This document shows positions 36,203 through 63,774 of a stretch of 64,000 nucleotides of DNA, piece by piece. Position 1 is the stretch's first letter, and the number at the start of each line of letters is the position of its first letter. Origin of the DNA: Arenicola marina (Eukaryota; Annelida; Polychaeta; Arenicolidae); assembly GCA_964019135.1 (NCBI GenBank), contig OZ025258.1:2604001-2668000 (forward strand), written 5' to 3'. The notes beneath the pieces were generated by a model. It worked only from the letters and a program-made list of their open reading frames with translations. It did no database searches and had not been told where the DNA came from. Position numbers and translations under genes: made by a program.

Positions 36203-39200
36203 CGGTCGGCACTCACTGACCATCTCCCGTCAGTTCACATTCACTTCCCACCATGACCGGTCGGCACTCACTGACCATCTCCCGTCAGTTCACATTCACT
36301 TCCCACCATGACCGGTCGGCACTCACTGACCATCTCCCGTCAGTTCACATTCACTTCCCACCATGACCGGTCGGCACTCCCTGACCATCTCCCGTCAGTT
36401 CACATTCACTTCCCACCATGATCGGTCGGCACTCCCAGACCATCTCCCGTCAGTTCACATTCACTTCCCACCATGACCGGTCGGCACTCCGTGACCATCT
36501 CCCGTCAGTTCACATTCACTTCCCACCATGATCGGTCGGCACTCACTGACCATCTCCCGTCAGTTCACATTCACTTCCCACCATGACCGGTCGGCACTCC
36601 CTGACCATTTCCCGTCAGTTCACATTCACTTCCCACCATGATCGGTCGGCACTCACTGACCATCTCCCGTCAGTTCACATTCACTTCCCACCATGACCGG
36701 TCGGCACTCCCTGACCATCTCCCGTCAGTTCACATTCACTTCCCACCATGACCGGTCGGCACTCCCTGACCATCTCCCGTCAGTTCACATTCACTTCCCA
36801 CCATGACCGGTCGGCACTCCCTGACCATCTCCCGTCAGTTCACATTCACTTCCCACCATGATCGGTCGGCACTCCCTGACCATCTCCCGTCAGTTCACAT
36901 TCACTTCCCACCATGATCGGTCGGCATTCCCTGACCATCTCCCGTCAGTTCACATTCACTTCCCACCATGACCGGTCGGCACTCCCTGACCATCTCCCGT
37001 CAGTTCACATTCACTTCCCTCCATGATCGGTCGGCACTCACTGACCATCTCCCGTCAGTGCACATTCACTTCCCACCATGATCGGTCGGCACTCCCTGAC
37101 CATCTCCCGTCAGTTCACATTCACTTCCCACCATGACCGGTCGGCATTCCCTGACCATCTCCCGTCAGTTCTCATTCACTTCCCACCATGACCGGTCGGC
37201 ATTCCCTGACCATCTCCCGTCAGTTCTCATTCACTTCCCACCATGACCGGTCGGCATTCCCTGACCATCTCCCGTCAGTTCACATTCACTTCCCACCATG
37301 ACCGGTCGGCACTCCCTGATCATCTCCCGTCAGTTCACATTCACTTCCCACCATGACCGGTCGGCATTCCCTGACCATCTCCCGTCAGTTCTCATTCACT
37401 TCCCACCATGATCGGTCGGCATTCCCTGACCATCTCCCGTCAGTTCTCATTCACTTCCCACCATGATCGGTCGGCACTCACTGACCATCTCCCGTCAGTT
37501 CACATTCACTTCCCACCATGACCGGTCGGCATTCCCTGACCATCTCCCGTCAGTTCACATTCACTTCCCACCATGACCGGTCGGCACTCCCTGACCATCT
37601 CCCGTCAGTTCACATTCACTTCCCACCATGACCGGTCGGCACTCACTGACCATCTCCCGTCAGTTCACATTCACTTCCCACCATGATCGGTCGGCACTCA
37701 CTGACCATCTCCCGTCAGTTCACATTCACTTCCCACCATGATCGGTCGGCACTCACTGACCATCTCCCGTCAGTTCACATTCACTTCCCTCCATGACCGG
37801 TCGGCACTCACTGACCATCTCCCGTCAGTTCACATTCACTTCCCACCATGACCGGTCGGCACTCACTGACCATCTCCCGTCAGTTCACATTCACTTCCCA
37901 CCATGATCGGTCGGCACTCACTGACCATCTCCCGTCAGTTCACATTCACTTCCCACCATGATCGGTCGGCACTCCCTGACCATCTCCCGTCAGTTCACAT
38001 TCACTTCCCTCCATGATCGATCGGCACTCCCTGACCATCTCCCGTCAGTTCACATTCACTTCCCACCATGACCGGTCGGCACTCCCTGACCATCTCCCGT
38101 CAGTTCACATTCACTTCCCTCCATGATCGGTCGGCACTCACTGACCATCTCCCGTCAGTTCACATTCACTTCCCTCCATGATCGGTCGGCACTCACTGAC
38201 CATCTCCCGTCAGTTCACATTCACTTCCCACCATGACCGGTCGGCACTCACTGACCATCTCCCGTCAGTTCACATTCACTTCCCACCATGATCGGTCGGC
38301 ACTCACTGACCATCTCCCGTCAGTTCACATTCACTTCCCACCATGATCGGTCAGCACTCACTGACCATCTCCCGTCAGTTCACATTCACTTCCCACCATG
38401 ATCGGTCGGCACTCACTGACCATCTCCCGTCAGTTCACATTCACTTCCCTCCATGATCGGTCGGCACTCACTGACCATCTCCCGTCAGTTCACATTCACT
38501 TCCCACCATGACCGGTCGGCATTCCCTGACCATCTCCCGTCAGTTCACATTCACTTCCCACCATGACCGGTCGGCACTCACTGACCATCTCCCGTCAGTT
38601 CACATTCACTTCCCTCCATGACCGGTCGGCACTCACTGACCATCTCCCGTCAGTTCACATTCACTTCCCTCCATGACCGGTCGGCACTCACTGACCATAT
38701 CCCGTCAGTTCACATTCACTTCCCACCATGACCGGTCGGCACTCACTGACCATCTCCCGTCAGTTCACATTCACTTCCCACCATGATCGGTCGGCACTCA
38801 CTGACCATCTCCCGTCAGTTCACATTCACTTCCCACCATGACCGGTCGGCACTCACTGACCATCTCCCGTCAGTTCACATTCACTTCCCACCATGACCGG
38901 TCGGCACTCACTGACCATCTCCCGTCAGTTCACATTCACTTCCCTCCATGATCGGTCGGCACTCCCTGACCATCTCCCGTCAGTTCACATTCACTTCCCA
39001 CCATGATCGGTCGGCACTCACTGACCATCTCCCGTCAGTTCACATTCACTTCCCTCCATGACCGGTCGGCACTCCCTGACCATCTCCCGTCAGTTCACAT
39101 TCACTTCCCTCCATGATCGGTCGGCACTCCCTGACCATCTCCCGTCAGTTCACATTCACTTCCCTCCATGATCGGTCGGCACTCCCTGACCATCTCCCGT

Positions 39201-42200
39201 CAGTTCACATTCACTTCCCACCATGATCGGTCGGCACTCACTGACCATCTTCCGTCAGTTCACATTCACTTCCCACCATGACCGGTCGGCACTCACTGAC
39301 CATCTCCCGTCAGTTCACATTCACTTCCCACCATGACCGGTCGGCACTCACTGACCATCTCCCGTCAGTTCACATTCACTTCCCACCATGACCGGTCGGC
39401 ATTCCCTGACCATCTCCCGTCAGTTCACATTCACTTCCCTCCATGACCGGTCGGCACTCACTGACCATCTCCCGTCAGTTCACATTCACTTCCCTCCATG
39501 ATCGGTCGGCACTCACTGACCATCTCCCGTCAGTTCACATTCACTTCCCACCATGATCGGTCGGCACTCACTGACCATCTCCCGTCAGTTCACATTCACT
39601 TCCCTCCATGATCGGTCGGCACTCACTGACCATCTCCCGTCAGTTCACATTCACTTCCCTCCATGATCGGTCGGCACTCACTGACCATCTCCCGTCAGTT
39701 CACATTCACTTCCCTCCATGACCGGTCGGCACTCACTGACCATCTCCCGTCAGTTCACATTCACTTCCCTCCATGATCGGTCGGCACTCACTGACCATCT
39801 CCCGTCAGTTCACATTCACTTCCCACCATGATCGGTCGGCACTCACTGACCATCTCCCGTCAGTTCACATTCACTTCCCTCCATGACCGGTCGCCACTCA
39901 CTGACCATCTCCCGTCAGTTCACATTCACTTCCCTCCATGATCGGTCGGCACTCACTGACCATCTCCCGTCAGTTCACATTCACTTCCCACCATGATCGG
40001 TCGGCACTCACTGACCATCTCCCGTCAGTTCACATTCACTTCCCACCATGACCGGTCGGCACTCACTGACCATCTCCCGTCAGTTCACATTCACTTCCCA
40101 CCATGATCGGTCGGCACTCCCTGACCATCTCCCGTCAGTTCACATTCACTTCCCACCATGACCGGTCGGCACTCACTGACCATCTCCCGTCAGTTCACAT
40201 TCACTTCCCACCATGACCGGTCGGCACTCACTGACCATCTCCCGTCAGTTCACATTCACTTCCCTCCATGACCGGTCGGCACTCACTGACCATCTCCCGT
40301 CAGTTCACATTCACTTCCCTCCATGATCGGTCGGCACTCCCTGACCATCTCCCGTCAGTTCACATTCACTTCCCACCATGACCGGTCGGCACTCACTGAC
40401 CATCTCCCGTCAGTTCACATTCACTTCCCTCCATGACCGGTCGGCATTCCCTGACCATGTCCCGTCAGTTCACATTCACTTCCCACCATGACCGGTCGGC
40501 ACTCACTGACCATCTCCCGTCAGTTCACATTCACTTCCCTCCATGATCGGTCGGCACTCCCTGACCATCTCCCGTCAGTTCACATTCACTTCCCACCATG
40601 ACCTGTCGGCACTCCCTGACCATCTCCCGTCAGTTCACATTCACTTCCCACGATGACCGGTCGGCATTCCCTGACCATCTCCCGTCAGTTCACATTCACT
40701 TCCCTCCATGACCGGTCGGCACTCACTGACCATCTCCCGTCAGTTCACATTCACTTCCCTCCATGATCGGTCGGCACTCCCTGACCATCTCCCGTCAGTT
40801 CACATTCACTTCCCACCATGACCGGTCGGCACTCCCTGACCATCTCCAGTCAGTTCACATTCACTTCCCACCATGACCGGTCGGCACTCCCTGACCATCT
40901 CCCGTCAGTTCACATTCACTTCCCACCATGACCGGTCGGCACTCACTGACCATCTCCCGTCAGTTCACATTCACTTCCCTCCATGACCGGTCGGCACTCA
41001 CTGACCATCTCCCGTCAGTTCACATTCACTTCCCTCCATGACCGGTCGGCACTCACTGACCATCTCCCGTCAGTTCACATTCACTTCCCTCCATGATCGG
41101 TCGGCACTCCCTGACCATCTCCCGTCAGTTCACATTCACTTCCCTCCATGATCGGTCGGCACTCCCTGACCATGTCCCGTCAGTTCACATTCACTTCCCA
41201 CCATGATCGGTCGGCACTCCCTGACCATGTCCCGTCAGTTCACATTCACTTCCCACCATGACCGGTCGGCACTCACTGACCATCTCCCGTCAGTTCACAT
41301 TCACTTCCCACCATGACCGGTCGGCACTCACTGACCATCTCCCGTCAGTTCACATTCACTTCCCTCCATGATCGGTCGGCACTCCCTGACCATCTCCCGT
41401 CAGTTCACATTCACTTCCCACCATGACCGGTCGGCACTCCCTGACCATCTCCCGTCAGTTCACATTCACTTCCCACCATGACCGGTCGGCACTCACTGAC
41501 CATCTCCCGTCAGTTCACATTCACTTCCCTCCATGACCGGTCGGCACTCACTGACCATCTCCCGTCAGTTCACATTCACTTCCCACCAAGATCGGTCGGC
41601 ACTCACTGACCATCTCCCGTCAGTTCACATTCACTTCCCACCATGATCGGTCGGCACTCACTGACCATCTCCCGTCAGTTCACATTCACTTCCCACCATG
41701 ATCGGTCGGCACTCCCTGACCATCTCCCGTCAGTTCACATTCACTTCCCACCATGATCGGTCGGCACTCACTGACCATCTCCCGTCAGTTCACATTCACT
41801 TCCCTCCATGATCGGTCGGCACTCCCTGACCATCTCCCGTCAGTTCACATTCACTTCCCTCCATGATCGGTCGGCACTCCCTGACCATCTCCCGTCAGTT
41901 CACATTCACTTCCGACCATGATCGGCCGGCACTCCCTGACCATCTCCCGTCAGTTCACATTCACTTCCCACCATGACCGGTCGGCACTCACTGACCATCT
42001 CCCGTCAGTTCACATTCACTTCCCACCATGATCGGTCGGCACTCACTGACCATCTCCCGTCAGTTCACATTCACTTCCCACCATGACCGGTCGGCACTCA
42101 CTGACCATCTCCCGTCAGTTTACATTCACTTCCCTCCATGATCGGTCGGCACTCCCTGACCATCTCCCGTCAGTTCACATTCACTTCCCACCATGACCGG

Positions 42201-45200
42201 TCGGCACTCACTGACCATCTCCCGTCAGTTCACATTCACTTCCCACCATGACCGGTCGGCACTCACTGACCATCTCCCGTCAGTTCACATTCACTTCCCT
42301 CCATGATCGGTCGGCACTCACTGACCATCTCCCGTCAGTTCACATTCACTTCCCACCATGATCGGTCGGCACTCACTGACCATCTCCCGTCAGTTCACAT
42401 TCACTTCCCACCATGACCGGTCGGCACTCCCTGACCATCTCCCGTCAGTTCACATTCACTTCCCTCCATGATCGGTCGGCACTCCCTGACCATGTCCCGT
42501 CAGTTCACATTCACTTCCCACCATGACCGGTCGGCATTCCCTGACCATCTCCCGTCAGTTCACATTCACTTCCCACCATGACCGGTCGGCATTCCCTGAC
42601 CATCTCCCGTCAGTTCACATTCACTTCCCACCATGACCGGTCGGCATTCCCTGACCATCTCCCGTCAGTTCACATTCACTTCCCACCAGGACCGGTCGGC
42701 ACTCCCTGACCATGTCCCGTCAGTTCACATTCACTTCCCACCATGACCGGTCGGCATTCCCTGACCATCTCTCGTCAGTTCACATTCACTTCCCACCATG
42801 ACCGGTCGGCACTCCCTGACCATGTCCCGTCAGTTCACATTCACTTCCCACCATGATCGGTCGGCACTCCCTGACCATGTCCCGTCAGTTCACATTCACT
42901 TCCCACCATGACCGGTCGGCATTCCCTGACCATCTCCCGTCAGTTCACATTCACTTCCCACCATGATCGGTCGGCATTCCCTGACCATCTCCCGTCAGTT
43001 CACATTCACTTCCCACCATGACCGGTCGGCACTCCCTGACCATCTCCCGTCAGTTCACATTCACTTCCCTCCATGATCGGTCGGCACTCCCTGACCATGT
43101 CCCGTCAGTTCACATTCACTTCCCACCATGACCGGTCGGCACTCCCTGACCATCTCCCGTCAGTTCACATTCACTTCCCACCATGACCGGTCGGCATTCC
43201 CCGACCATGTCCCGTCAGTTCACATTCACTTCCCACCATGATCGGTCGGCACTCACTGACCATCTCCCGTCAGTTCACATTCACTTCCCTCCATGACCGG
43301 TCGGCACTCACTGACCATCTCCCGTCAGTTCACATTCACTTCCCACCATGACCGGTCGGCACTCACTGACCATCTCCCGTCAGTTCACATTCACTTCCCA
43401 CCATGACCGGTCGGCATTCCCTGACCATCTCCCGTCAGTTCACATTCACTTCCCTCCATGACCGGTCGGCACTCACTGACCATCTCCCGTCAGTTCACAT
43501 TCACTTCCCTCCATGATCGGTCGGCACTCACTGACCATCTCCCGTCAGTTCACATTCACTTCCCTCCATGACCGGTCGGCACTCACTGACCATCTCCCGT
43601 CAGTTCACATTCACTTCCCACCATGACCGGTCGGCACTCACTGACCATCTCCCGTCAGTTCACATTCACTTCCCACCATGATCGGTCGGCACTCACTGAC
43701 CATCTCCCGTCAGTTCACATTCACTTCCCACCATGACCGGTCGGCACTCACTGACCATCTCCCGTCAGTTCACATTCACTTCCCACCATGATCGGTCGGC
43801 ACTCCCTGACCATCTCCCGTCAGTTCACATTCACTTCCCACCATGACCGGTCGGCACTCACTGACCATCTCCCGTCAGTTCACATTCACTTCCCTCCATG
43901 ACCGGTCGGCACTCACTGACCATCTCCCGTCAGTTCACATTCACTTCCCACCATGACCGGTCGGCACTCACTGACCATCTCCCGTCAGTTCACATTCACT
44001 TCCCTCCATGATCGGTCGGCACTCCCTGACCATCTCCCGTCAGTTCACATTCACTTCCCTCCATGATCGGTCGGCACTCCCTGACCATGTCCCGTCAGTT
44101 CACATTCACTTCCCACCATGATCGGTCGGCACTCCCTGACCATGTCCCGTCAGTTCACATTCACTTCCCACCATGACCGGTCGGCACTCACTGACCATCT
44201 CCCGTCAGTTCACATTCACTTCCCACCATGACCGGTCGGCACTCACTGACCATCTCCCGTCAGTTCACATTCACTTCCCTCCATGATCGGTCGGCACTCC
44301 CTGACCATCTCCCGTCAGTTCACATTCACTTCCCACCATGACCGGTCGGCACTCCCTGACCATCTCCCGTCAGTTCACATTCACTTCCCACCATGACCGG
44401 TCGGCACTCACTGACCATCTCCCGTCAGTTCACATTCACTTCCCTCCATGACCGGTCGGCACTCACTGACCATCTCCCGTCAGTTCACATTCACTTCCCA
44501 CCATGATCGGTCGGCACTCACTGACCATCTCCCGTCAGTTCACATTCACTTCCCACCATGATCGGTCGGCACTCACTGACCATCTCCCGTCAGTTCACAT
44601 TCACTTCCCACCATGATCGGTCGGCACTCCCTGACCATCTCCCGTCAGTTCACATTCACTTCCCACCATGATCGGTCGGCACTCACTGACCATCTCCCGT
44701 CAGTTCACATTCACTTCCCTCCATGATCGGTCGGCACTCCCTGACCATCTCCCGTCAGTTCACATTCACTTCCCTCCATGATCGGTCGGCACTCCCTGAC
44801 CATCTCCCGTCAGTTCACATTCACTTCCCACCATGATCGGCCGGCACTCCCTGACCATCTCCCGTCAGTTCACATTCACTTCCCACCATGACCGGTCGGC
44901 ACTCACTGACCATCTCCCGTCAGTTCACATTCACTTCCCACCATGATCGGTCGGCACTCACTGACCATCTCCCGTCAGTTCACATTCACTTCCCACCATG
45001 ACCGGTCGGCACTCACTGACCATCTCCCGTCAGTTTACATTCACTTCCCTCCATGATCGGTCGGCACTCCCTGACCATCTCCCGTCAGTTCACATTCACT
45101 TCCCACCATGACCGGTCGGCACTCACTGACCATCTCCCGTCAGTTCACATTCACTTCCCACCATGACCGGTCGGCACTCACTGACCATCTCCCGTCAGTT

Positions 45201-48200
45201 CACATTCACTTCCCTCCATGATCGGTCGGCACTCACTGACCATCTCCCGTCAGTTCACATTCACTTCCCCACCATGATCGGTCGGCACTCACTGACCATC
45301 TCCCGTCAGTTCACATTCACTTCCCACCATGACCGGTCGGCACTCCCTGACCATCTCCCGTCAGTTCACATTCACTTCCCACCATGACCGGTCGGCACTC
45401 CCTGACCATGTCCCGTCAGTTCACATTCACTTCCCACCATGACCGGTCGGCATTCCCTGACCATCTCCCGTCAGTTCACATTCACTTCCCACCATGACCG
45501 GTCGGCACTCCCTGACCATGTCCCGTCAGTTCACATTCACTTCCCACCATGATCGGTTGGCACTCCCTGACCATGTCCCGTCAGTTCACATTCACTTCCC
45601 ACCATGACCGGTCGGCATTCCCTGACCATCTCCCGTCAGTTCACATTCACTTCCCACCATGATCGGTCGGCATTCCCTGACCATCTCCCGTCAGTTCACA
45701 TTCACTTCCCACCATGACCGGTCGGCACTCCCTGACCATCTCCCGTCAGTTCACATTCACTTCCCTCCATGATCGGTCGGCACTCCCTGACCATGTCCCG
45801 TCAGTTCACATTCACTTCCCACCATGACCGGTCGGCACACCCTGACCATCTCCCGTCAGTTCACATTCACTTCCCACCATGACCGGTCGGCATTCCCCGA
45901 CCATGTCCCGTCAGTTCACATTCACTTCCCACCATGATCGGTCGGCACTCACTGACCATCTCCCGTCAGTTCACATTCACTTCCCTCCATGACCGGTCGG
46001 CACTCACTGACCATCTCCCGTCAGTTCACATTCACTTCCCACCATGACCGGTCGGCACTCACTGACCATCTCCCGTCAGTTCACATTCACTTCCCACCAT
46101 GACCGGTCGGCATTCCCTGACCATCTCCCGTCAGTTCACATTCACTTCCCTCCATGACCGGTCGGCACTCACTGACCATCTCCCGTCAGTTCACATTCAC
46201 TTCCCTCCATGATCGGTCGGCACTCCCTGACCATCTCCCGTCAGTTCACATTCACTTCCCACCATGATCGGTCGGCACTCACTGACCATCTCCCGTCAGT
46301 TCACATTCACTTCCCCACCATGATCGGTCGGCACTCACTGACCATCTCCCGTCAGTTCACATTCACTTCCCACCATGACCGGTCGGCACTCCCTGACCAT
46401 CTCCCGTCAGTTCACATTCACTTCCCACCATGACCGGTCGGCACTCCCTGACCATGTCCCGTCAGTTCACATTCACTTCCCACCATGACCGGTCGGCATT
46501 CCCTGACCATCTCCCGTCAGTTCACATTCACTTCCCACCATGACCGGTCGGCATTCCCTGACCATGTCCCGTCAGTTCACATTCACTTCCCACCATGACC
46601 GGTCGGCATTCCCTGACCATCTCCCGTCAGTTCACATTCACTTCCCTCCATGATCGGTCGGCACTCACTGACCATCTCCCGTCAGTTCACATTCACTTCC
46701 CTCCATGACCGGTCGGCACTCACTGACCATCTCCCGTCAGTTCACATTCACTTCCCACCATGACCGGTCGGCACTCACTGACCATCTCCCGTCAGTTCAC
46801 ATTCACTTCCCACCATGATCGGTCGGCACTCACTGACCATCTCCCGTCAGTTCACATTCACTTCCCACCATGACCGGTCGGCACTCACTGACCATCTCCC
46901 GTCAGTTCACATTCACTTCCCACCATGATCGGTCGGCACTCCCTGACCATCTCCCGTCAGTTCACATTCACTTCCCACCATGACCGGTCGGCACTCACTG
47001 ACCATCTCCCGTCAGTTCACATTCACTTCCCACCATGACCGGTCGGCACTCACTGACCATCTCCCGTCAGTTCACATTCACTTCCCTCCATGACCGGTCG
47101 GCACTCACTGACCATCTCCCGTCAGTTCACATTCACTTCCCTCCATGATCGGTCGGCACTCCCTGACCATCTCCCGTCAGTTCACATTCACTTCCCACCA
47201 TGACCGGTCGGCACTCACTGACCATCTCCCGTCAGTTCACATTCACTTCCCTCCATGACCGGTCGGCATTCCCTGACCATGTCCCGTCAGTTCACATTCA
47301 CTTCCCACCATGACCGGTCGGCACTCACTGACCATCTCCCGTCAGTTCACATTCACTTCCCTCCATGATCGGTCGGCACTCCCTGACCATCTCCCGTCAG
47401 TTCACATTCACTTCCCACCATGACCGGTCGGCACTCCCTGACCATCTCCCGTCAGTTCACATTCACTTCCCACGATGACCGGTCGGCATTCCCTGACCAT
47501 CTCCCGTCAGTTCACATTCACTTCCCTCCATGACCGGTCGGCACTCACTGACCATCTCCCGTCAGTTCACATTCACTTCCCTCCATGATCGGTCGGCATT
47601 CCCTGACCATCTCCCGTCAGTTCACATTCACTTCCCACCATGACCGGTCGGCACTCACTGACCATCTCCCGTCAGTTCACATTCACTTCCCTCCATGATC
47701 GGTCGGCACTCCCTGACCATCTCCCGTCAGTTCACATTCACTTCCCACCATGACCGGTCGGCACTCCCTGACCATCTCCCGTCAGTTCACATTCACTTCC
47801 CACGATGACCGGTCGGCATTCCCTGACCATCTCCCGTCAGTTCACATTCACTTCCCTCCATGACCGGTCGGCACTCACTGACCATCTCCCGTCAGTTCAC
47901 ATTCACTTCCCTCCATGATCGGTCGGCACTCCCTGACCATCTCCCGTCAGTTCACATTCACTTCCCACCATGACCGGTCGGCACTCCCTGACCATCTCCC
48001 GTCAGTTCACATTCACTTCCCACGATGACCGGTCGGCATTCCCTGACCATCTCCCGTCAGTTCACATTCACTTCCCTCCATGACCGGTCGGCACTCACTG
48101 ACCATCTCCCGTCAGTTCACATTCACTTCCCACCATGACCGGTCGGCACTCCCTGACCATCTCCCGTCAGTTCACATTCACTTCCCACCATGACCGGTCG

Positions 48201-51200
48201 GCACTCCCTGACCATCTCCCGTCAGTTCACATTCACTTCCCACCATGACCGGTCGGCACTCACTGACCATCTCCCGTCAGTTCACATTCACTTCCCTCCA
48301 TGACCGGTCGGCACTCACTGACCATCTCCCGTCAGTTCACATTCACTTCCCACCATGACCGGTCGGCACTCACTGACCATCTCCCGTCAGTTCACATTCA
48401 CTTCCCTCCATGATCGGTCGGCACTCCCTGACCATCTCCCGTCAGTTCACATTCACTTCCCTCCATGATCGGTCGGCACTCCCTGACCATGTCCCGTCAG
48501 TTCACATTCACTTCCCACCATGATCGGTCGGCACTCCCTGACCATGTCCCGTCAGTTCACATTCACTTCCCACCATGACCGGTCGGCACTCACTGACCAT
48601 CTCCCGTCAGTTCACATTCACTTCCCACCATGACCGGTCGGCACTCACTGACCATCTCCCGTCAGTTCACATTCACTTCCCTCCATGATCGGTCGGCACT
48701 CCCTGACCATCTCCCGTCAGTTCACATTCACTTCCCACCATGACCGGTCGGCACTCCCTGACCATCTCCCGTCAGTTCACATTCACTTCCCACCATGACC
48801 GGTCGGCACTCACTGACCATCTCCCGTCAGTTCACATTCACTTCCCTCCATGACCGGTCGGCACTCACTGACCATCTCCCGTCAGTTCACATTCACTTCC
48901 CACCATGATCGGTCGGCACTCACTGACCATCTCCCGTCAGTTCACATTCACTTCCCACCATGATCGGTCGGCACTCACTGACCATCTCCCGTCAGTTCAC
49001 ATTCACTTCCCACCATGATCGGTCGGCACTCCCTGACCATCTCCCGTCAGTTCACATTCACTTCCCACCATGATCGGTCGGCACTCACTGACCATCTCCC
49101 GTCAGTTCACATTCACTTCCCTCCATGATCGGTCGGCACTCCCTGACCATCTCCCGTCAGTTCACATTCACTTCCCTCCATGATCGGTCGGCACTCCCTG
49201 ACCATCTCCCGTCAGTTCACATTCACTTCCCACCATGATCGGCCGGCACTCCCTGACCATCTCCCGTCAGTTCACATTCACTTCCCACCATGACCGGTCG
49301 GCACTCACTGACCATCTCCCGTCAGTTCACATTCACTTCCCACCATGATCGGTCGGCACTCACTGACCATCTCCCGTCAGTTCACATTCACTTCCCACCA
49401 TGACCGGTCGGCACTCACTGACCATCTCCCGTCAGTTTACATTCACTTCCCTCCATGATCGGTCGGCACTCCCTGACCATCTCCCGTCAGTTCACATTCA
49501 CTTCCCACCATGACCGGTCGGCACTCACTGACCATCTCCCGTCAGTTCACATTCACTTCCCACCATGACCGGTCGGCACTCACTGACCATCTCCCGTCAG
49601 TTCACATTCACTTCCCTCCATGATCGGTCGGCACTCACTGACCATCTCCCGTCAGTTCACATTCACTTCCCACCATGATCGGTCGGCACTCACTGACCAT
49701 CTCCCGTCAGTTCACATTCACTTCCCACCATGACCGGTCGGCACTCCCTGACCATCTCCCGTCAGTTCACATTCACTTCCCTCCGTGATCGGTCGGCACT
49801 CCCTGACCATCTCCCGTCAGTTCACATTCACTTCCCTCCATGATCGGTCGGCACTCACTGACCATCTCCCGTCAGTTCACATTCACTTCCCACCATGATC
49901 GGTCGGCACTCACTGACCATCTCCCGTCAGTTCACATTCACTTCCCACCATGACCGGTCGGCACTCCCTGACCATCTCCCGTCAGTTCACATTCACTTCC
50001 CTCCATGATCGGTCGGCACTCCCTGACCATGTCCCGTCAGTTCACATTCACTTCCCACCATGACCGGTCGGCATTCCCTGACCATCTCCCGTCAGTTCAC
50101 ATTCACTTCCCACCATGACCGGTCGGCATTCCCTGACCATCTCCCGTCAGTTCACATTCACTTCCCACCATGACCGGTCGGCACTCCCTGACCATGTCCC
50201 GTCAGTTCACATTCACTTCCCACCATGACCGGTCGGCATTCCCTGACCATCTCCCGTCAGTTCACATTCACTTCCCACCATGACCGGTCGGCACTCCCTG
50301 ACCATGTCCCGTCAGTTCACATTCACTTCCCACCATGATCGGTCGGCACTCCCTGACCATGTCCCGTCAGTTCACATTCACTTCCCACCATGACCGGTCG
50401 GCATTCCCTGACCATCTCCCGTCAGTTCACATTCACTTCCCACCATGATCGGTCGGCATTCCCTGACCATCTCCCGTCAGTTCACATTCACTTCCCACCA
50501 TGACCGGTCGGCACTCCCTGACCATCTCCCGTCAGTTCACATTCACTTCCCTCCATGATCGGTCGGCACTCCCTGACCATGTCCCGTCAGTTCACATTCA
50601 CTTCCCACCATGACCGGTCGGCACTCCCTGACCATCTCCCGTCAGTTCACATTCACTTCCCACCATGACCGGTCGGCATTCCCCGACCATGTCCCGTCAG
50701 TTCACATTCACTTCCCACCATGATCGGTCGGCACTCACTGACCATCTCCCGTCAGTTCACATTCACTTCCCTCCATGACCGGTCGGCACTCCCTGACCAT
50801 CTCCCGTCAGTTCACATTCACTTCCCACCATGACCGGTCGGCACTCACTGACCATCTCCCGTCAGTTCACATTCACTTCACACCATGACCGGTCGGCACT
50901 CACTGACCATCTCCCGTCAGTTCACATTCACTTCCCTCCATGACCGGTCGGCACTCACTGACCATCTCCCGTCAGTTCACATTCACTTCCCTCCATGATC
51001 GGTCGGCACTCCCTGACCATCTCCCGTCAGTTCACATTCACTTCCCTCCATGATCGGTCGGCACTCCCTGACCATGTCCCGTCAGTTCACATTCACTTCC
51101 CTCCATGACCGGTCGGCACTCCCTGACCATGTCCCGTCAGTTCACATTCACTTCCCTCCATGATCGGTCGGCACTTCCTGACCATCTCCCGTCAGTTCAC

Positions 51201-54200
51201 ATTCACTTCCCACCATGACCGGTCGGCATTCCCTGACCATCTCCCGTCAGTTAACATTCACTTCCCTCCATGACCGGTCGGCATTCCCTGACCATCTCCC
51301 GTCAGTTCTCATTCACTTCCCACCATGATCGGTCGGCACTCCCTGACCATCTCCCGTCAGTTCACATTCACTTCCCTCCATGATCGGTCGGCACTCCCTG
51401 ACCATCTCCCGTCAGTTCACATTCACTTCCCACCATGATCGGTCGGCATTCCCTGACCGACCATGTCCCGTCAGTTCACATTCACTTCCCACCATGATCG
51501 GTCGGCACTCACTGACCATCTCCCGTCAGTTCACATTCACTTCCCTCCATGACCGGTCGGCACTCCCTGACCATCTCCCGTCAGTTCTCATTCACTTCCC
51601 ACCATGATCGGTCGGCACTCCCTGACCATCTCCCGTCAGTTCACATTCACTTCCCTCCATGATCGGTCGGCACTCCCTGACCATCTCCCGTCAGTTCACA
51701 TTCACTTCCCGCCATGACCGGTCGGCACTCCCTGACCATCTCCCGTCAGTTCACATTCACTTCCCACCATGATCGGTCGGCACTCACTGACCATCTCCCG
51801 TCAGTTCACATTCACTTCCCACCATGACCGGTCGGCACTCACTGACCATCTCCCGTCAGTTCACATTCACTTCCCACCATGATCGGTCGGCACTCCCTGA
51901 CCATCTCCCGTCAGTTCACATTCACTTCCCACCATGACCGGTCGGCATTCCCTGACCATCTCCCGTCAGTTCACATTCACTTCCCTCCATGATCGGTCGG
52001 CACTCCCTGACCATCTCCCGTCAGTTCACATTCACTTCCCTCCATGATCGGTCGGCACTCACTGACCATCTCCCGTCAGTTCACATTCACTTCCCACCAT
52101 GACCGGTCGGCACTCCCTGACCATCTCCCGTCAGTTCACATTCACTTCCCTCCATGATCGGTCGGCACTCCCTGACCATGTCCCGTCAGTTCACATTCAC
52201 TTCCCACCATGACCGGTCGGCACTCCCTGACCATCTCCCGTCAGTTCACATTCACTTCCCTCCATGATCGGTCGGCACTCCCTGACCATGTCCCGTCAGT
52301 TCACATTCACTTCCCACCATGACCGGTCGGCACTCCCTGACCATCTCCCGTCAGTTCACATTCACTTCCCACCATGACCGGTCGGCATTCCCCGACCATG
52401 TCCCGTCAGTTCACATTCACTTCCCACCATGATCGGTCGGCACTCACTGATCATCTCCCGTCAGTTCACATTCACTTCCCTCCATGACCGGTCGGCACTC
52501 CCTGACCATCTCCCGTCAGTTCACATTCACTTCCCTCCATGATCGGTCGGCACTTCCTGACCATCTCCCGTCAGTTCACATTCACTTCCCACCATGACCG
52601 GTCGGCATTCCCTGACCATCTCCCGTCAGTTAACATTCACTTCCCTCCATGACCGGTCGGCATTCCCCGACCATCTCCCGTCAGTTCTCATTCACTTCCC
52701 ACCATGATCGGTCGGCACTCCCTGACCATCTCCCGTCAGTTCACATTCACTTCCCTCCATGATCGGTCGGCACTCCCTGACCATCTCCCGTCAGTTCACA
52801 TTCACTTCCCACCATGATCGGTCGGCATTCCCTGACCGACCATGTCCCGTCAGTTCACATTCACTTCCCACCATGATCGGTCGGCACTCACTGACCATCT
52901 CCCGTCAGTTCACATTCACTTCCCTCCATGACCGGTCGGCACTCCCTGACCATCTCCCGTCAGTTCACATTCACTTCCCTCCATGATCGGTCGGCACTCC
53001 CTGACCATCTCCCGTCAGTTCACATTCACTTCCCACCGTGATCGGTCGGCATTCCCTGACCATCTCCCGTCAGTTCACATTCACTTCCCACCATGATCGG
53101 TCGGCACTCCCTGACCATCTCCCGTCAGTTCACATTCACTTCCCACCATGATCGGTCGGCACTCCCTGACCATCTCCCGTCAGTTCACATTCACTTCCTT
53201 CCATGACCGGTCGGCACTCCCTGACCATCTCCCGTCAGTTTACATTCACTTCCCTCCATGATCGGTCGGCACTCCCTGACCATCTCCCGTCAGTTCACAT
53301 TCACTTCCCACCATGACCGGTCGGCACTCCCTGACCATCTCCCGTCAGTTCACATTCACTTCCCACCATGACCGGTCGGCACTCCCTGACCATCTCCCGT
53401 CAGTTCACATTCACTTCCCACCATGATCGGTCGGCACTCCCTGACCATCTCCCGTCAGTTCACATTCACTTACCTCCATGATCGGTCGGCATTCCCTGAC
53501 CATCTCCCGTCAGTTCACATTCACTTCCCACCATGATCGGTCGGCACTTCCTGACCATCTCCCGTCAGTTCACATTCACTTCCCTCCATGATCGGTCGGC
53601 ACTCCCTGACCATGTCCCGTCAGTTCACATTCACTTCCCTCCATGATCGGTCGGCATTCCCTGACCATCTCCCGTCAGTTCACATTCACTTCCCTCCATG
53701 ACCGGTCGGCACTCCCTGACCATCTCCCGTCAGTTCACATTCACTTCCCTCCATGATCGGTCGGCACTCTCTGACCATCTACGGTCAGTTCACATTCACT
53801 TGCCACCATGATCGGTCGGCACTCACTGACCATCTCCCGTCAGTTCACATTCACTTCCCGCCATGATCGGTCGGCATTCCCTGACCATCTCCCGTCAGTT
53901 CACATTCACTTCCCTCCATGATCGGTCGGCACTCACTGACCATCTCCCGTCAGTTCACATTCACTTCCCGCCATGATCGGTCGGCATTCCCTGACCATCT
54001 CCCGTCAGTTCACATTCACTTCCCACCATGATCGGTCGGCACTCCCTGACCATCTCCCGTCAGTTCACATTCACTTCCCACCATGATCGGTCGGCACTCC
54101 CTGACCATCTCCCGTCAGTTCACATTCACTTCCCTCCATGACCGGTCGGCACTCCCTGACCATCTCCCGTCAGTTTACATTCACTTCCCTCCATGATCGG

Positions 54201-54744
54201 TCGGCACTCCCTGACCATCTCCCGTCAGTTCACATTCACTTCCCACCGTGACCGGTCGGCACTCCCTGACCATCTCCCGTCAGTTCACATTCACTTCCCA
54301 CCATGACCGGTCGGCACTCCCTGACCATCTCCCGTCAGTTCACATTCACTTCCCACCATGATCGGTCGGCACTCCCTGACCATCTCCCGTCAGCTCACAT
54401 TCACTTCCCACCATGATCGGTCGGCACTCCCTGACCATCTCCCGTCAGTTCACATTCACTTCCCTCCATGATCGGTCGGCACTCCCTGACCATGTCCCGT
54501 CAGTTCACATTCACTTCCCTCCATGATCGGTCGGCATTCCCTGACCATCTCCCGTCAGTTCACATTCACTTCCCTCCATGATCGGTCGGCACTCCCTGAC
54601 CATCTCCCGTCAGTTCACATTCACTTCCCTCCATGACCGGTCGGCACTCCCTGACCATGTCCCGTCAGTTCTCATTCACTTCCCTCCATGATCGGTCGAC
54701 ACTCCCTGACCATCTCCCGTCAGTTCACATTCACTTCCCTCTAT
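36203..54744. repeat. 55-bp satellite array, main part, about 337 copies
   Basis: 18.5 kb of almost uniform 55-bp units continuing the array at 32535-33190. Most variation falls at a few positions: GATCGG/GACCGG, CACTCA/CACTCC/CATTCC, CATCTCC/CATGTCC and CCCACC/CCCTCC. Rare variants recur at long fixed spacings: GGCCGGC near 41930, 44836 and 49240; GTTTACATTC near 42118, 45032 and 49434; an extra C near 45267 and 46313; an extra GACC near 51456 and 52835. These show repeated duplication of blocks of 1 to several kb. Unit length is not divisible by three, so only short open frames occur. I see no inserted gene in the whole stretch. Confidence 0.97.
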
Positions 54745-54960: not shown

Positions 54961-57900
54961 TCACATCACCCACAGTAACGACATAGACAACGCTACATCA
55001 CTCACAGTACCGACAGACAACGCTACATCACCCACAGTAACGACATGGACAACGCTACATCACACAGTACCGACAGACAACGCTACATCACCCACAGTAC
55101 CGACAGCCAACGCTACATCACCCACAGTAACGACATGGACAACGCTACATCACCCACAGTAACGACATGGACAACGCTACATCAACCACTGTAACGACAT
55201 GGACAACGCTACATCACCCACAGTACCGACAGACAACGCTACATCACCCACAGTACCGACAGACAACGCTACATCACCCACAGTAACGACAGACAACGCT
55301 ACATCACCCACCGTACCGACATGGGAACTATACATCACCCACAGTACCGACAGACAACGCTACATCACCCACAGTACCGACAAGGACAACGCTATATCAC
55401 ACACAGTGCCGACATGGACAACGCTACATCACCCACAGTAACGACATGGACAACGCTATATCACCCACAGTAACGAGAGACAACGCTACATCACCCACAG
55501 TAACGACAGACAACGCTACATCAGCCACCGTACCGACATGGACAACGCTACATCACACACCGTAACGACATGGACAACGCTACATCACCCAGAGTAACGA
55601 CATGGACAACGCTACATCACCCACAGTGACGACAGACAACGCTACATCACCCACAGTAACGACAGACAACGCTACATCACCCACAGTACCGACAAGGACA
55701 ACGCTACATCACACACAGTGCCGACATGGACAAGGCTTAATCACCCACAGTACCAACAGACAACGCTACATCACCCACAGTAACGACAGACAACGCTACA
55801 TCACCCGCAGTAACGACAGACAACGCTACATCACCCACAGTACCGACAAGGACAACGCTACATCACACACAGTAACGACATGGACAACGCTACATCACCC
55901 ACAGTAACGACATGGACAACGCTACATCACCCACAGTAACGACAGACAACGCTACATCACCCACAGTAACGACAGACAACGCTACATCACCCACAGTACC
56001 GACATGGACAACGCTACATCACACACCGTAACGACATGGACAACGCTACATCACCCACAGTAACGACATGGACAACGCTACATCACCCACAGTAACGACA
56101 GACAACGCTATATCACCCACAGTAACGACAGACAACGCTACATCACCCACAGTAACGACATGGACAACGCTACATCACACACAGTAACGACAGACAACGC
56201 TACATCACCCACAGTAACGACATGGACAACGCTACATCACCCACATTGCCGACATGGACAACGCTACATCACCCACAGTAACGACAGATAACGCTACATC
56301 ACCCACATAGCGACAGACATCGCTACATCACCCAGAGTAACGACATGGACAACTCTACATTACCCACCGTAACGACAGACAACGCTACATCACCCACAGT
56401 AACGACAGGCAACGCTACATCACCCACAGTACCGACAAGGACAACGCTACATCACACACAGTAACAACATGGACAACGCTACATCACCCACAGTACCGAC
56501 AGACAACGCTACATCACCCACAGTAACGACAGACAACGCTACATCACCCACAGTACCGACAAGGACAACGCTACATCACACACAGTGCCGACATGGACAA
56601 CGCTACATCACCCAGAGTAACGACATGGACAACGCTATATCACCCACAGTAACGACAGACAACGCTACATCACCCACAGTAACGACAGACAACGCTGCAT
56701 CACACACCGTAACGACATGGACAACGCTACATCACCCACAGTAACGACATGGACAACGCTACATCACCCACAGTAACGACAGACAACGCTACATCACCCA
56801 CAGTAACGACAGGCAATGCTACATCACACCCAGTACCGACAAGGACAACGCTACATCACCCACAGTACCGACAAGGACAACGCTACATCACACACAGTGC
56901 CGACATGGACAACGCTACATCACCCACAGTACCGACAGCCAACGCTACATCACCCATAGTACCGACAAGGACAACGCTACATCACACACAGTACCGACAG
57001 ACAAAGCTACATCACCCACAGTAACGACTAGGACAACGCTACATCACCCACAGTACCGACAGACAAAGCTACATCACCCACAGTAACGACTAGGACAACG
57101 CTACATCACACACAGTAACGACATGGACAACGCTACATCACCCACAGTAACGACATGGACAACGCTACATCACCCACAGTAACGACAGACAACGCTACAT
57201 CACCCACAGTAACGACAGACAACGCTACATCACCCACAGTAACGACATGGACAACGCTACATCACCCACATTACCGACATGGACAACGCTTCATCACACA
57301 CAGTAACGACAGACAACGCTACATCACCCACATAGCGACAGACATCGCTACATCACCCAGAGTAACGACATGGACAACGCTACATTACCCACCGTAACGA
57401 CAGACAACGCTGCATCACACACAGTAACGACAGACAACGCTACATTACCCACAGTACCGACAAGGACAACGCTACATCACCCACATTACCGACATGGACA
57501 ACGCTTCATCACACACAGTAACGACAGACAACGCTACATCACCCACAGTAACGACACGGACAACGCTACATCACCCACAGTAACGACATGGACAACGCTA
57601 CATCACCCACAGTAACGACAGACAACGCTACATCACCCAGAGTAACGACACGGACAACGCTACATCACACACCGTAACGACATGGACAACGCTACATCGC
57701 CCACAGTAACGACATGGACAACGCTACATCACCCACAGTAACGACAGACAACGCTACATCACCCACAGTAACGACATGGACAACGCTGCCTACATCACCC
57801 ACATTACCGGCAGACAACGCTACACCACCCACAGTAACGGCAGATAACGCTACATTACACATAGTAACGACATGGACAACGCTACATCACCCGCAGTAAC

Positions 57901-58090
57901 GACATGAACAACGCTACATCACCCACAGTAACGATATGGACAACGCTATATCACCCACAGTAACGACATTGACAATGCTACATCACCCACTGTAACGACA
58001 TGGACAACGCTACATCACCCACAGTACCGACAAGGACAACGCTACATCACCCACAGTAACGACATTGACAACGCTACATCACCCACAGTG
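54961..58090. repeat. 30/32-bp minisatellite array, left part
   Basis: About 100 copies mixing two unit lengths: ACAGTAACGACATGGACAAC plus GCTACATCACCC (32 bp), and a 30-bp form with GACAGACAAC instead of GACATGGACAAC. TACCGAC/TAACGAC and CCCAC/CACAC variants are frequent. The array is interrupted at about 58090 by a LINE and resumes at about 63301. Confidence 0.95.
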
Positions 58091-59539
58091 ATCACTCCGC
58101 ATTCCGGAGTCACCGTGGGGTCAGGAAAACTGTGTCCTTCTAATTCAGGATATCATGTCAACAAAATTGAACATGGAGCAGGCAGTCGATATCAAACTAC
58201 AACGTTGTCACAGGCTGGGCCCACACCCTACCCCTGCCATGAGAACCAAGGGGTCGCGGCCCATCATTGTCAGAGGCTGGGCCCACACCCTACCCCTGCC
58301 ATGAGAACCAAGGGGTTGCGGCCCATCATTGTCACAGGCTGGGCCCACACCCTACCCCTGCCACGAGAACCAAGGGGTTGCGGCCCATCATTGTCACAGG
58401 CTGGGCCCACACCCTACCCCTGCCATGAGAACCAAGGGGTTGCGGCCCATCATTGTCACAGGCTGGGCCCACACCCTACCCCTGCCACGAGAACCAAGGG
58501 GTCGCGGCCCATCATTGTCAGAGGCTGGGCCCACACCCTACTCCTGCCACGGGAACCAAGGGGTCGCGGCCCATCATTGTCACAGGCTGGGCCCACACCC
58601 TGCCCCTGCCACGAGAACCAAGAGGTCGCGGCCCATCATTGTCAGAGGCTGGGCCCACACCCTACTCCTGCCACGGGAACCAAGGGGTCGCGGCCCATCA
58701 TTGTCACAGGCTGGGCCCTCACCCTGCCCCTGCCACGAGAACCAAGAGGTCGCGGCCCATCATTGTCACAGGCTGGGCCCACACCCTGCCCCTGCCACGA
58801 GAACCAAGAGGTCGCGGCCCATCATTGTCACAGGCTGGGCCCACACCCTACCCCTGCCACGAGAACCAAGGGGTCGCGGCCCATCATTGTCACAGGCTGG
58901 GCCTACACCCTACCCCTGCCACGAGAACCAAGAGGTCGCGGCCCATCATTGTCACAGGCTGGGCCTACACCCTACCCCTGCCACGAGAACCAAGAGGTTG
59001 CGGCCCATCATTGTCAGAGGCTGGGCCCACACCCTACCCCTGCCATGAGAACCAAGGGGTTGCGGCCCATCATTGTCACAGGCTGGTCCCACACCCTACC
59101 CCTGCCATGAGAACCAAGGGGTCGCGGCCCATCATTGTCACAGACTGGGCCCACACCCTGCCCCTGCCACGAGAACCAAGGGGTCGCGGCCCATCATTGT
59201 CACAGGCTGGGCCTACACCCTACCCCTGCCACGAGAACCAAGGGGTCGCGGCCCATCGTTGTTCGTTACGCCTTCTTCGACGACCGCGAGAAAGTCTGGG
59301 CCCGGAAGACGCAGTCACGTGGGACTCGACTCTTCGTTGACGAGGACTTTCCGAAAGCCGTCCAGGACGAGCGCCGCATCCTGCTGCCTGTGATGAAGGC
59401 CGTCCGGTCGGACGGCGCCCGCGCCACCCTATCGGGAAACAGGCTACTAATCAACGGCAAGAGCTATGATGTTGGGACTTTGACCACACTACCGGAAGCC
59501 TGGCGGAGAAGTCCTCACGCGGTGCAAGTTGTATCGTAA
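58091..59539 (+). pseudogene. ORF1-like nucleic-acid-binding protein of the LINE, split by a minisatellite
   Basis: The left part reads IPESPWGQENCVLLIQDIMS, then MEQAVDIKLQRCHRLGPHPT (to about 58240). The right part reads SRPIVVRYAFFDDREKVWAR, GTRLFVDEDFPKAVQDERRI and ATLSGNRLLINGKSYDVGTL, ending at a stop at 59537-59539. The pattern QRCHRLG...RPIIVR...DREKVW...DEDFP is the RRM plus C-terminal domain layout of L1-type ORF1 RNA chaperones. Between the two lie about 17 copies of a 62-bp unit whose own translation is CHRLGPHPTPATRTKGSRPI. Extra units change the frame (62 is not divisible by three), so the gene is dead. Its N-terminal coiled coil is not present. Confidence 0.75.
58207..59255 (+). 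repeat. 62-bp minisatellite derived from ORF1 codons, about 17 copies
   Basis: The unit is AAGGGGTCGCGGCCCATCAT, TGTCACAGGCTGGGCCCACA, CCCTACCCCTGCCACGAGAA, CC. Variants are CACAGG/CAGAGG, CCATGAG/CCACGAG and GGGGTCG/GAGGTCG. In one frame each copy encodes the HRLG to RPIIV segment of the ORF1-like protein, and the first and last copies join the flanking ORF1 codons in frame. Three overlapping long open frames (up to 340 codons) are frame-rotating readings of the array. Confidence 0.9.
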
Positions 59540-60304
59540 GGACATATGAATGAGGTGGGGTCCTAAAAATTAATGTAATTTGATACTGACGCCGATATGA
59601 AAATTGGTATGCAATAGACCTATGGCTGTTATTTACCGGAAATTCGCTTTTGAGACTGTCCCTTGAGTGTGGTGTTGACCCACGTGGATTATATCTATGT
59701 TTATTTCATATTGTGCAAGGGGTGTATAGACGTGTATTGTATCAATTTGTTTTGCTCGTGACGTGACTGAAGTGGCCCGTGCTGAACGACTCCAGTCGAG
59801 TCGGAGCGCACTGCTAGTGTTTTTGTGATGGACGGTAATGTGCTGCTGCCTAGACGCAGTCAACCAAGACGGCGCCGAGTTCCCCGCCCCCCCCCCCTGT
59901 AAATGCTATTGCCTTCGTGTGCGTGTCATATGAAACACGTGTATTACTCCTGTGATCAAACACACATCGCCAGTGCCTAGAACGTGTTTAGAGAAATGAA
60001 ATGAACATTGGGCTCGACTCACAACGTAATTTAAAACGCCTTATGCATATTCATGTGGTGACGCTCTCGTGTTTTCCTAAGCACCTGTGCACAAAGCTGT
60101 GCTGCGCTACCTTGACCCCATTTTCCATGCGATGTTAATTTTTATTCTTATTTGTTTATTGTTTGTCTATTGTACTGATTCGTTGTACGCGTTTTGAGTT
60201 CTCGCCAGTTTGCGCTGTAAATACGATCAGCTTGATTCAGATCGACCTGAGTACGAATGGTAGAACCAAGGTAGTATGGAAAAATATACACTTGTACTTT
60301 TCAA
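59540..60304. other. non-coding stretch between ORF1-like and ORF2 parts
   Basis: About 765 bp with no recognisable domain on either strand. It includes a run of C at about 59882-59898 and AT-rich sequence before the ORF2 start. It may be an inter-ORF spacer of the LINE or sequence from another insertion. Confidence 0.4.
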
Positions 60305-63276
60305 ATGTTAGATGTGCATATCACTGAAAGTGAGGATTTCTTGAGGCAATTTGGCGATATTGAGCAGAATTCTCTGCTCAATACATTGAAGTCGAATGAT
60401 AGAAATGTAAAATATAACAATTCAGAGGTGGATTACATAAAACTATCACCCTATTACACAGAAGACCAAGTTTTATCGACTCTTTGTGAGGATCGGGATG
60501 AATTCTCTATTATGAGCTTAATTGTCGCCTCTATATCATCAAAATTTGACGAATTGAAAGTGTTAACAGATATGTTAGAAAGTAAAGGTATTGAATTATC
60601 TGCAATATGTTTACAGGAGAGTTGGCTGTCTGACGACTCTGACCTATCACTGTTTAACTTAGAGAATTATACACTTATCTCTACTGGGAAGTATTGTAGT
60701 GCTCATGGTGGACTAATTATATATTTAAACAACAAGCTTAAGTACAAAACTATTTCCCCGCATGTTCGATCTGATATATGGGAAGGGCAATTTATAGAAG
60801 TCGCGGGGCGGCACTCCACAGAGAAAAAAGTGATATTAGGAAACATTTATCGGCCTCCCCGGGATATTAATGATAATTATATTCAGTTTACAAAAGAATT
60901 ATCTTCTACCCTTCACCATCTTGAGAAAAACCCTTGCGAGGTTATCATTGCAGGCGATTATAATATAGATCTTCTCAGTCTGAATGAAAAACCAGTTTTA
61001 AGTGAGTACTTCGACACCGTTCTTTCCCGAAGCTTTTTCCCCATGATAACTCTCCCAACAAGACTGTCCAAATATAGGGGAACTTTAATTGACAATTTTC
61101 TCTGTAAACTGACTCCGAACACATTAAGTACAACTGCTGGTATACTGTTCAAAGGTCTGTCGGACCATTTGCCATATTTTATATCCTTCAATCTTAATAT
61201 TCGGCTTTCTCATAAAACACCGACCCATGTACAGGTAGAAACAAGGGACCTGAATTCCCTTCTTAACTTTAAAGCGTATCTTGCAAAGGCAGAAATTACC
61301 AGTAAAATGGAAAAAGATATGCACGCCGATCCAAACATTAACTACAAAATACTACAGGATGTACTCACAAAGGCCAAGCGTGATCTCTTGCCAAGTAGAC
61401 TAGTCAAATTTAATAAGCATAAACATAAGAAATCGGTATGGGTTACGCAGGGAATTATCAAATCTATTTCCTTAACAGACAAACTTTACAGGAGGCTAAA
61501 AGCAACGCTACCAGATTCCATGCAGTATGGAACATTGAAGACGAATTTAAAGACTTATAACATAATGCTAAAAAAGTTGATTGCACAAGCTAAAACTGAT
61601 TATTATCTTAAACGCTTTGACAAGTGCAAAAATGATATTAAAGGAACATGGAGAGAAAATCAAATGCTTACTGAATAATAAAAAGGACACGAAAGACTTT
61701 CCGGACTATTTTAATATCGAGGGCAAGCCGATGGAAAATAGACAACTGATAACAGATAACTTCAGTAGTTTCTTCCTCAATATCGGCATAACTATCTGCG
61801 GCAATTTAGATTGCGCAAACACAACACCCTACGAGTCTTATTTGAAACCTCTACCCACATTAAATAAACTATGTTTCACAGAAATTAATAAAGCCCAGAT
61901 ATTGGGGGCCATAAATGAACTAAAATCCAAATCAAGTTCAGGTCACGATGGAATTTCGGTAAAATTGCTCAAGATAGTCAAGGAAGAATTATGTGAGAGT
62001 ATTACTCTGATATTCAATCAATGCCTGACGACAGGGATCTTTCCCGACTAGTTAAAACTGGCCAAGATAATTCCAGTCTTCAAAAAAGATGATAACACAA
62101 ATATCGATAACTATCGACCAATATCTCTATTACCAGCAATTTCTAAAATCTTCAAGAAAATTGTATTTACCTTCTTGTATGATCATTTTCAGAAGAAAAA
62201 GCTCTTTAACTCTAACCAGTATGGGTTCAGAAAGAAGCACTCCACTGAACATGCTACATTAGAACTGATAGACAGAACTATACAAAAGCTTGATGAAGGT
62301 AAAATTTCTATTCATATATATCTGGATTTATCCAAAGCATTTGATACATTAAATCATAACATTTTATTAACCAAGCTTCATCACTAAGGCGTATCTGGAA
62401 CTGCACTAAATCTCATAAAAAGTTATCTAGATAATCGCAAACAGTACGTTATGATAGATAATATACGATCTGAAGAAATGCCTGTCACACGCGGGGTTCC
62501 ACAAGGCTCAATCCTAGGGCCGCTACTCTTTATAATCTATACCAATGATTTACCCCACGCCAGCGATGTTTTTAAGTTCATAGTATACGCTGATGATACT
62601 ACACTGTTTAGTACACTGGATGCATCAATAACCGGAATGAAACATAAATGATGAATTATCCAAGATAAACAATTGGTTAATGGTAAATGATCTGTGCCTA
62701 AGCATAACAAAAACTAAATATATGGTACTCTACAAGCCCCAGAAAATAAAAATTCCAGAACTATACATTGCCAGGAACAAACTAGAGTGCGTCGATACCT
62801 CTGATCTGCTAGGACTAACCATAGATAAACATTTAGCATGGCACAGCCATACAAACAAACTTGCTGCAAAATTAAGCAAAGTTGTTGGTATCCTAAAGAG
62901 GCTAGGAAACTTCCTTCCCCAACACATACTGTATACTACATATATGGCACTGTTTCAGAGTCAACTATATTACTGCATTCTGGCATGGGGATATCGAGTT
63001 GACAGGTTATTGAATCAAAAACAGGCAATTAGGATTAGAACAAAAAGTCATTATATCGCACACACGGACCCGCTATTCAAATATCTCAAAATCTTGAAAC
63101 TAAAAGTTATAAATACATCACAACGACTTAAATTTTACCACCAATTCATAAATAATAACCTACCAGCTTACTTTCTCGAACACATGACATTCCTCAAGAT
63201 AAATGACTTACATAGTCATAACACAAGACAAAACCACACATTTCATATCCCGACTATCAAACACAAATTCTGTTAA
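60305..63276 (+). pseudogene. LINE ORF2: endonuclease and reverse transcriptase, broken
   Basis: The first frame (60305-61678, 457 codons) holds an APE-type endonuclease: AICLQESWLSDD, GGLIIYLNN, ILGNIYRPPRD, VIIAGDYNIDLL, GTLIDNFLCKL and GLSDHLPYF. Reverse transcriptase follows in other frames: NYRPISLLPAISKIFKKI, NQYGFRKKHSTEHATLELID, motif A LDLSKAFDTLNHNILL, motif B TRGVPQGSILGPLLFIIYTN and YADD at about 62586-62597. A thumb and C-terminal part runs to a stop at 63274-63276. There is a frame change near 61660, an in-frame TAG at 62049, a TAA at 62385, and another frame change near 62640. The sequence style (KAFDTLNH, PQGSILGPLLF) fits L2/CR1-related clades. It cannot make a working protein. 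Confidence 0.85.
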
Positions 63277-63300
63277 CTTACCTTATGACATAGTCTCATC

Positions 63301-63774
63301 CATCACCTAAACGTCATCATCCAACGCTACATGACCCACAGTAACGTCATCGTCCAACGCTACATGACCCACAGTAACGACATGGACAACGCTACATGAC
63401 CCACAGTAACGACATGGAAAACGCTACATCACCCACAGTAACGATATGGACAACGCTACATCACCCATAGTAACGACATGGACAGCGCTACATCACCCAC
63501 AGTAACGACATTGACAACGCTACATCACCCACAGTAACAATATGAACAACGCTACATCACCCATAGTAACGATATGGACAACGCTAGATCACCCACGGTA
63601 ACGATATGGACAACGCTACATCACCCAAATTAACGACATGGACAACGCTACATCACCCACAGTAACGACATGACAATGCTACATCACCCACAGTAACGAC
63701 ATGGACAACGCTACATCACCCACAGTAATGACAAACAACGCTACATCACCCACAGTAACGACATGGACAACACT
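63301..63774. repeat. 30/32-bp minisatellite array, right part
   Basis: About 15 copies of the same unit as 54961-58090, beyond the LINE. The first copies are diverged (GTCATCATCCAACGCTACATGACCC-like), as at an array edge. Confidence 0.93.

Follow-up and report, generated by a model that had tools for sequence, protein, structure and literature searches.

How does a minisatellite arise from single-copy DNA? The first step can seldom be observed, as the single-copy ancestor has in most cases disappeared. The window that we analysed, a stretch of 64,000 nucleotides (C11:2604001-2668000) from an assembly of 867,369,267 bases in 762 contigs, contains a 62-bp tandem array within the coding DNA of a LINE, and a preliminary description had claimed that this piece of ORF1 was tandemly amplified in place. 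The dispersed relatives of this element keep the single-copy state base by base, together with the junction and two outcomes, arrays of 17 and of 38 units. If the repeated use of the site was independent, a direct test becomes possible of what marks the place of a first duplication.

A 62-bp array within the ORF1 remnant of a LINE

Tandem Repeats Finder reported an array in the window at 58205-59262, with a period of 62, 17.1 copies, 95% matches and a score of 1878 (all window features given here lie on the plus strand). Together with a unit-by-unit list, this gives 17 full head-to-tail units, all equal in length (58205..59258) and comprising 13 distinct variants, followed by TTGT, the four bases of a partial 18th unit (59259..59262). 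The unit starts with TTGTCACAGG and ends with CCCATCA. When the unit junction was searched for across the 867 Mb at up to three mismatches, 53 matches were found, 16 on contig C11 and 37 on contig C3, all of them in two arrays and nowhere else, and a reversed control pattern gave 0 matches. The window array is far beyond chance.

Both flanks of the array belong to ORF1. On the left lies a part of the LINE ORF1 RNA-binding region that is cut at 58099 (58099..58204, from blastn against 20 fetched copies and an upstream comparison), and on the right the remainder of ORF1, from VVRYAFFDDREKVW to the stop (59259..59539, from translation and matches in relatives). The span 58091-59539 consists of this ORF1 remnant and a few non-LINE bases at the left; the LINE match starts at 58099. 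As the preliminary description had stated, the first unit is in frame with the left flank, where QRCHRLG (58200) reads into unit 1, and the last is in frame with the right flank, where TKGSRPI of unit 17 (59237) reads into VVRYAFF (59258). The unit length is not a multiple of three and the 16 extra units add 992 bp, which is 2 mod 3, so the left and right flanks are now in different frames. The array broke the ORF1 reading frame rather than extending it.

In a copy of the element with a single unit (L036), the unit lies inside an open ORF1 of 302 aa, at about residues 190-210 by hand count. Residues 93-224 of this ORF1 align to the human LINE-1 ORF1p structure 2ykp (E 2.2e-4), and the unit falls within the aligned stretch. 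Against Pfam Transposase_22 the same ORF1 scored 20.8 bits, under the cut-off of 22.4, and no Pfam family matched the 100-aa ORF1 piece of the window itself. The structure match thus bears out, weakly, the earlier assignment of the unit to the coding DNA of the ORF1 RNA-binding domain.

Comparison with relatives places the whole LINE fragment at 58099..63312, with both ends missing. Its ORF2 includes an endonuclease remnant (60305..61600) that matches Exo_endo_phos (E 3.7e-6; 27.3 bits, cut-off 24.5), and a reverse transcriptase remnant (at approximately 62047..62650) whose translation matches RVT_1 in two pieces with stops between them (E 7.3e-14 and 8.8e-12; 52.4 and 45.6 bits, cut-off 29.6). 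Judged by these remnants and its stop codons, the window element is a decayed fragment of a non-LTR retrotransposon. The matches of relatives to the window copy begin at 58099 or about one base later, with one that begins further in. Full-length relatives extend ~730 bp further in the 5' direction, and beyond 63312 relatives extend 3' by between 128 bp (the C3 copy) and ~505 bp (L034 compared with L030). Since relatives extend past both of its limits, the window copy is without both ends.

On its left the LINE fragment is bordered by a 32-bp minisatellite of ~100 copies (54963..58089), which resumes on its right with ~14 copies (63322..63771; both from Tandem Repeats Finder). Read by eye, unit position 14 is the last of the left array and the right array restarts at about position 15, with ~9 filler bases at the left, a phase across the gap that fits insertion of the LINE fragment into a pre-existing array. 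Any target-site duplication at the fragment would be indistinguishable from the 32-bp repeat. Over 58090-63322, the LINE fragment, with both ends missing, is set cleanly in the 32-bp minisatellite, an arrangement that does not resemble ordinary target-primed insertion.

Fifteen relatives of the element carry a single unit

A search with window positions 58091-58400 gave 24 loci, with 24 of 24 candidates scored and all counts being lower bounds, and 20 of the 23 loci outside the window were fetched for comparison. A search with the right flank additionally brought up copies that start 3' of the unit and distant relatives at ~70%; the counts given here are for the 24 loci. Fifteen of these (L030-L044) have the unit just once between the two flanks, with five distinct unit sequences among them, and two carry arrays. 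In five the unit is cut by a deletion: the sequences of four (L045-L048) show the unit cut by, or running into, deletions, and the match coordinates of the fifth (C3:15514425), which matches to mid-unit and then again past the unit, suggest the same. The remaining two are short or weak matches (C19:10355647, 70%; C1:12586599, 35 bp). The 15 single-unit copies are not all independent, as L031-L041 are close together, L042-L044 form another clade and L030 represents a third lineage.

The expectation that other copies of the element would hold one unit was thus confirmed at 15 of 24 loci, with only one further locus holding an array. Arrays occur in only 2 of the 24 loci, which does not fit an array that most copies of the element share, and relatives of the ORF1 do contain the unit. 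The single-unit copies support the tandem amplification of a piece of LINE ORF1 coding DNA to a 17-copy array at the window locus. That part of the original claim stands; that the amplification took place in situ is inferred, and a second array exists. That the array is foreign DNA, or that it is an artefact of assembly set into the LINE, seems to us extremely improbable. An assembly may misjudge copy number, and we found no other support for such an origin, whereas in the relatives the unit belongs to the coding DNA of the element itself and the window units differ from one another (13 of 17 distinct), unlike a pure duplication artefact.

In 11 of the 15 single copies TTGT is present at both ends of the unit, and the other four have TTAT at the left or TTGC at the right. 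TTAT stands left of the unit in L030 and L042-L044, and TTGC stands right of it in L042-L044 and in the C3 copy, where the right-edge repeat is TTG. The array junction, CCCATCA-TTGT-CA, is the product expected from joining two TTGT-bounded ends. With TTGT at both unit ends and the junction at TTGT, the period corresponds to the distance between two short direct repeats. Both the single-unit state and the junction at the short repeat can be read directly from the aligned copies.

We consider it highly probable that the ORF1 stretch of an inserted LINE fragment was duplicated between short TTGT repeats and then grown to 17 units. A LINE fragment, cut at both ends, would have come to sit inside the 32-bp minisatellite, where the 62-bp stretch between the TTGT repeats could have been duplicated by slippage or short-homology end joining. 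This duplication would then have grown to its present size via slippage, unequal exchange or gene conversion, in an element that was probably already dead when the array formed.

Other structural features were seen in the fetched copies. L041 contains an insertion of ~200 bp (~2802-3004) at the place that corresponds to the cut in the window copy. Of this insertion, perhaps a small mobile element, 185 bp match DNA downstream of L030 at 96%. In L042 (5113-5329) and L043 (5114-5330) the 5' end of the element occurs again in part, downstream of the first copy. L048 carries an 18-bp unit repeated 3.2 times with no mismatch (3714-3771), a possible young tandem duplication.

A second array in a diverged copy

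The second array, in L029 on contig C3, has 38 units of the 62-bp unit on the minus strand (C3:43432645-43435000, hand-converted), and its junction is identical to that of the window array. It lies among long minisatellites of 53 bp x 88, 40 bp x 48 and 34 bp x 103 (L029, C3:43428000-43437900, with L049 and L050).

A comparison of the window with 29.9 kb around the C3 array found no similarity outside the element, so a single origin by segmental duplication is unsupported. Within the element, the window and C3 copies are 90.3% identical over 2599 columns (~10% diverged); among the single-unit copies, identity to the window copy is 94.4-95.9% for L030-L041 and 90.4-91.2% for L042-L044. The two array copies did not group in a tree of the element or in one of its ORF1 flank only, at low supports (0.52-0.90 and 45-74). 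Positions 19-22 of the edge units read ACAC at both edges of the window array and AAAG and AAAA in C3, and the distances between the first units (6) and between the last units (7) are no smaller than the between-array mean of 5.95. The lack of grouping in the trees, the lack of shared outside DNA and the non-corresponding edge units count for the independence of the C3 array.

The units themselves also carry shared variants. The C20+C22 haplotype is present in all 17 window units and in 7 of the 38 C3 units, and C20 in none of the 15 single units. Of the alleles seen only in arrays, 13 in one and 37 in the other, five are shared, which gives p 0.21 by plain count and p 0.023 when weighted by frequency. 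G49 occurs in 17 of 17 window units, in 35 of 38 C3 units and in three single copies (L042-L044); it is absent from L030-L041, and L031-L041 are the closest relatives of the window copy. The haplotype, the weighted sharing and G49, together with the low tree supports, leave room for a shared history of the arrays. Such a history could be due to a single birth of the array and a subsequent spread of its units to the second locus through ectopic gene conversion or break repair, in which the recipient's one unit paired within the array of the donor. Transfer of this kind is favoured by the identical junction, by the distribution of the C20+C22 haplotype and by the weighted allele sharing. The plain count, however, argues against it, as do G47, which is found in 12 of 17 window units and is absent from C3, and the first 560 columns of the element, where no state is common to window and C3 alone among the informative columns (compared as group consensuses, with C3 partly gapped). 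We regard this transfer as possible but doubtful.

Alternatively, the array could have been inherited from an ancestral element, with the single-unit copies representing collapses during reverse transcription. Collapse between direct repeats is common, and the same array is present in two elements. Against this, single units are found in 15 copies from at least three lineages compared with two arrays, no full-length copy bearing an array is present among the loci found, the units at the array edges do not match between the two loci, and one gain followed by several losses would be required. This makes inheritance of the array improbable. Two amplifications in place, both at a single fragile site and perhaps followed by some exchange of units, are the reading that we somewhat favour: the C3 copy would have undergone a separate process at the same site, leading to 38 units and possibly involving some unit exchange, a step to which we give slightly better than even chances.

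Growth of the two arrays

Units differ on average at 3.31 of 62 sites (5.3%) in the window array and at 4.25 (6.9%) in the C3 array, while the terminal branches of the two elements are 0.026 and 0.065. In the window, unit diversity is about twice the terminal branch of 2.6%, which is in line with growth that began soon after insertion. The C3 units, in contrast, appear to be younger, or more homogenised, than their own element.

The preliminary description had proposed aligning the unit variants to infer the order of amplification. No significant polar order was detected in the window array by lag-1 or lag-2 similarity (p 0.13 each), and its identical unit pairs are 2/14, 5/11, 6/8 and 7/10. 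In the C3 array lag-2 similarity is above that of shuffled orders (p 0.0005), as seen for example in the pairs 25/27, 26/28 and 35/37, and this signal indicates that the C3 array grew by two-unit blocks.

What marks the site

Since L031 contains 2066 comparable pairs of repeats that are 4 bp or longer and lie 20-120 bp apart, short homology alone cannot explain why one pair was used twice, and we rejected microhomology as the full cause of site choice. It seems to us an even question whether the 62-bp ORF1 stretch is a strong hotspot of minisatellite birth, in which the identical 62 bp were independently amplified twice, in copies that are ~10% diverged, lie on different contigs and are each cut at the 5' side within ~160 bp of the stretch, with something beyond short homology marking the site.

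Candidate marks may include GC content, hairpin strength and a nearby truncated end formed on insertion. GC as high as that of the site occurs in 21 of 478 windows of L031 and 33 of 478 of L030, and folding as strong occurs in 10 of 478 (bottom strand) and 72 of 478 (top strand) in L031 and in 35 and 96 of 478, respectively, in L030. As hotspot features, GC and folding are suggestive only. Within the fetched DNA, the 5' part is missing in both array copies and in 2 of the 15 single-unit copies (L030 and L038); a post hoc hand calculation for this association gives 6/136 = 0.044. Minisatellite-rich surroundings may be a further cause: tandem repeats make up 71% of the window and 43% of the C3 stretch, but in the 2.9 kb upstream of the 19 other fetched copies their share ranges from 0 to 66%.

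Comparison with known minisatellites of transposon origin

By its title, a 1994 study by Kelly concerns two minisatellites of the mouse that share a similar origin in transposon-like LTRs. Going by that title, the mouse case is alike in having two arrays of similar origin in one kind of element and differs in that the element is an LTR, not LINE coding DNA.

Events of this general kind are already known: minisatellites derived from transposable elements (TEs), hotspots inside such elements and duplications across short repeats on either side have been described (PMC3389668; PMC6947457; PMC7004042), and the window holds an unusually complete example of the birth of a TE-derived minisatellite. 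The repeated segment belongs to the host element and is single in other copies of it, and the units are arranged head-to-tail and vary in sequence. In humans, the passages of Ahmed and Liang (2012; PMC3389668) on TE-derived tandem repeats give at least 7,276 such arrays, or 23% of minisatellites and satellites, and name regions of AluS and LTR12 as hotspots and a 17-copy array of a 52-bp unit in AluJo. The cases in these passages resemble ours in that part of an element is tandemly repeated at its own locus; ours differs in having a LINE ORF1 coding unit, the identical 62 bp in two copies and long arrays (17 and 38 units).

The model of Haber and Louis (1998), as quoted in PMC3389668, has direct repeats of 5-10 bp on either side of the unit. 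As in that model and in that of Taylor and Breden (2000), in the form in which PMC3389668 and PMC6947457 relay them, a short direct repeat bounds the unit and sets the period here; unlike that of the quoted Haber and Louis form, this repeat spans 4 bp (or 3 bp at the C3 right edge), under the 5-10 bp range. Slipped mispairing at noncontiguous repeats, the process of Taylor and Breden, predicts an incomplete terminal unit; the 4-bp partial unit that ends the array is what any duplication across a 4-bp repeat would produce. In Lathyrus, the part of PMC7004042 on Ogre-derived satellites describes retrotransposon sequence that was expanded into arrays at some loci. Expansion at some loci is common to both systems; the short arrays in that account are part of the Ogre elements, whereas here 15 relatives have a single unit and only 2 of 24 loci carry an array, so that element copies do not generally carry one. 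Our literature search found no minisatellite from LINE ORF1 coding DNA, which is not proof of absence.

Probes of neighbouring arrays

For four nearby arrays, with units of 56, 55, 34 and 36 bp, probes across the array boundary detected no single-copy relative of a unit, and the units occurred only within the window; very common words were skipped in these searches and one of the four was weak (2 of 3 candidates scored, its own query place unlisted). For the 56-bp array the flank, not the unit, has weak matches (70-84%) elsewhere. The suggestion in the preliminary description that the other minisatellites here may have been born in the way of the 62-bp array is not borne out by these probes. 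Confinement of the units to the window would agree with an origin in unique DNA, but no ancestor is visible. Tandem repeats of about 12 different unit lengths make up 71% of the window (1-64000); one of them, a 55-bp unit, is present in ~337 copies (36203-54739).
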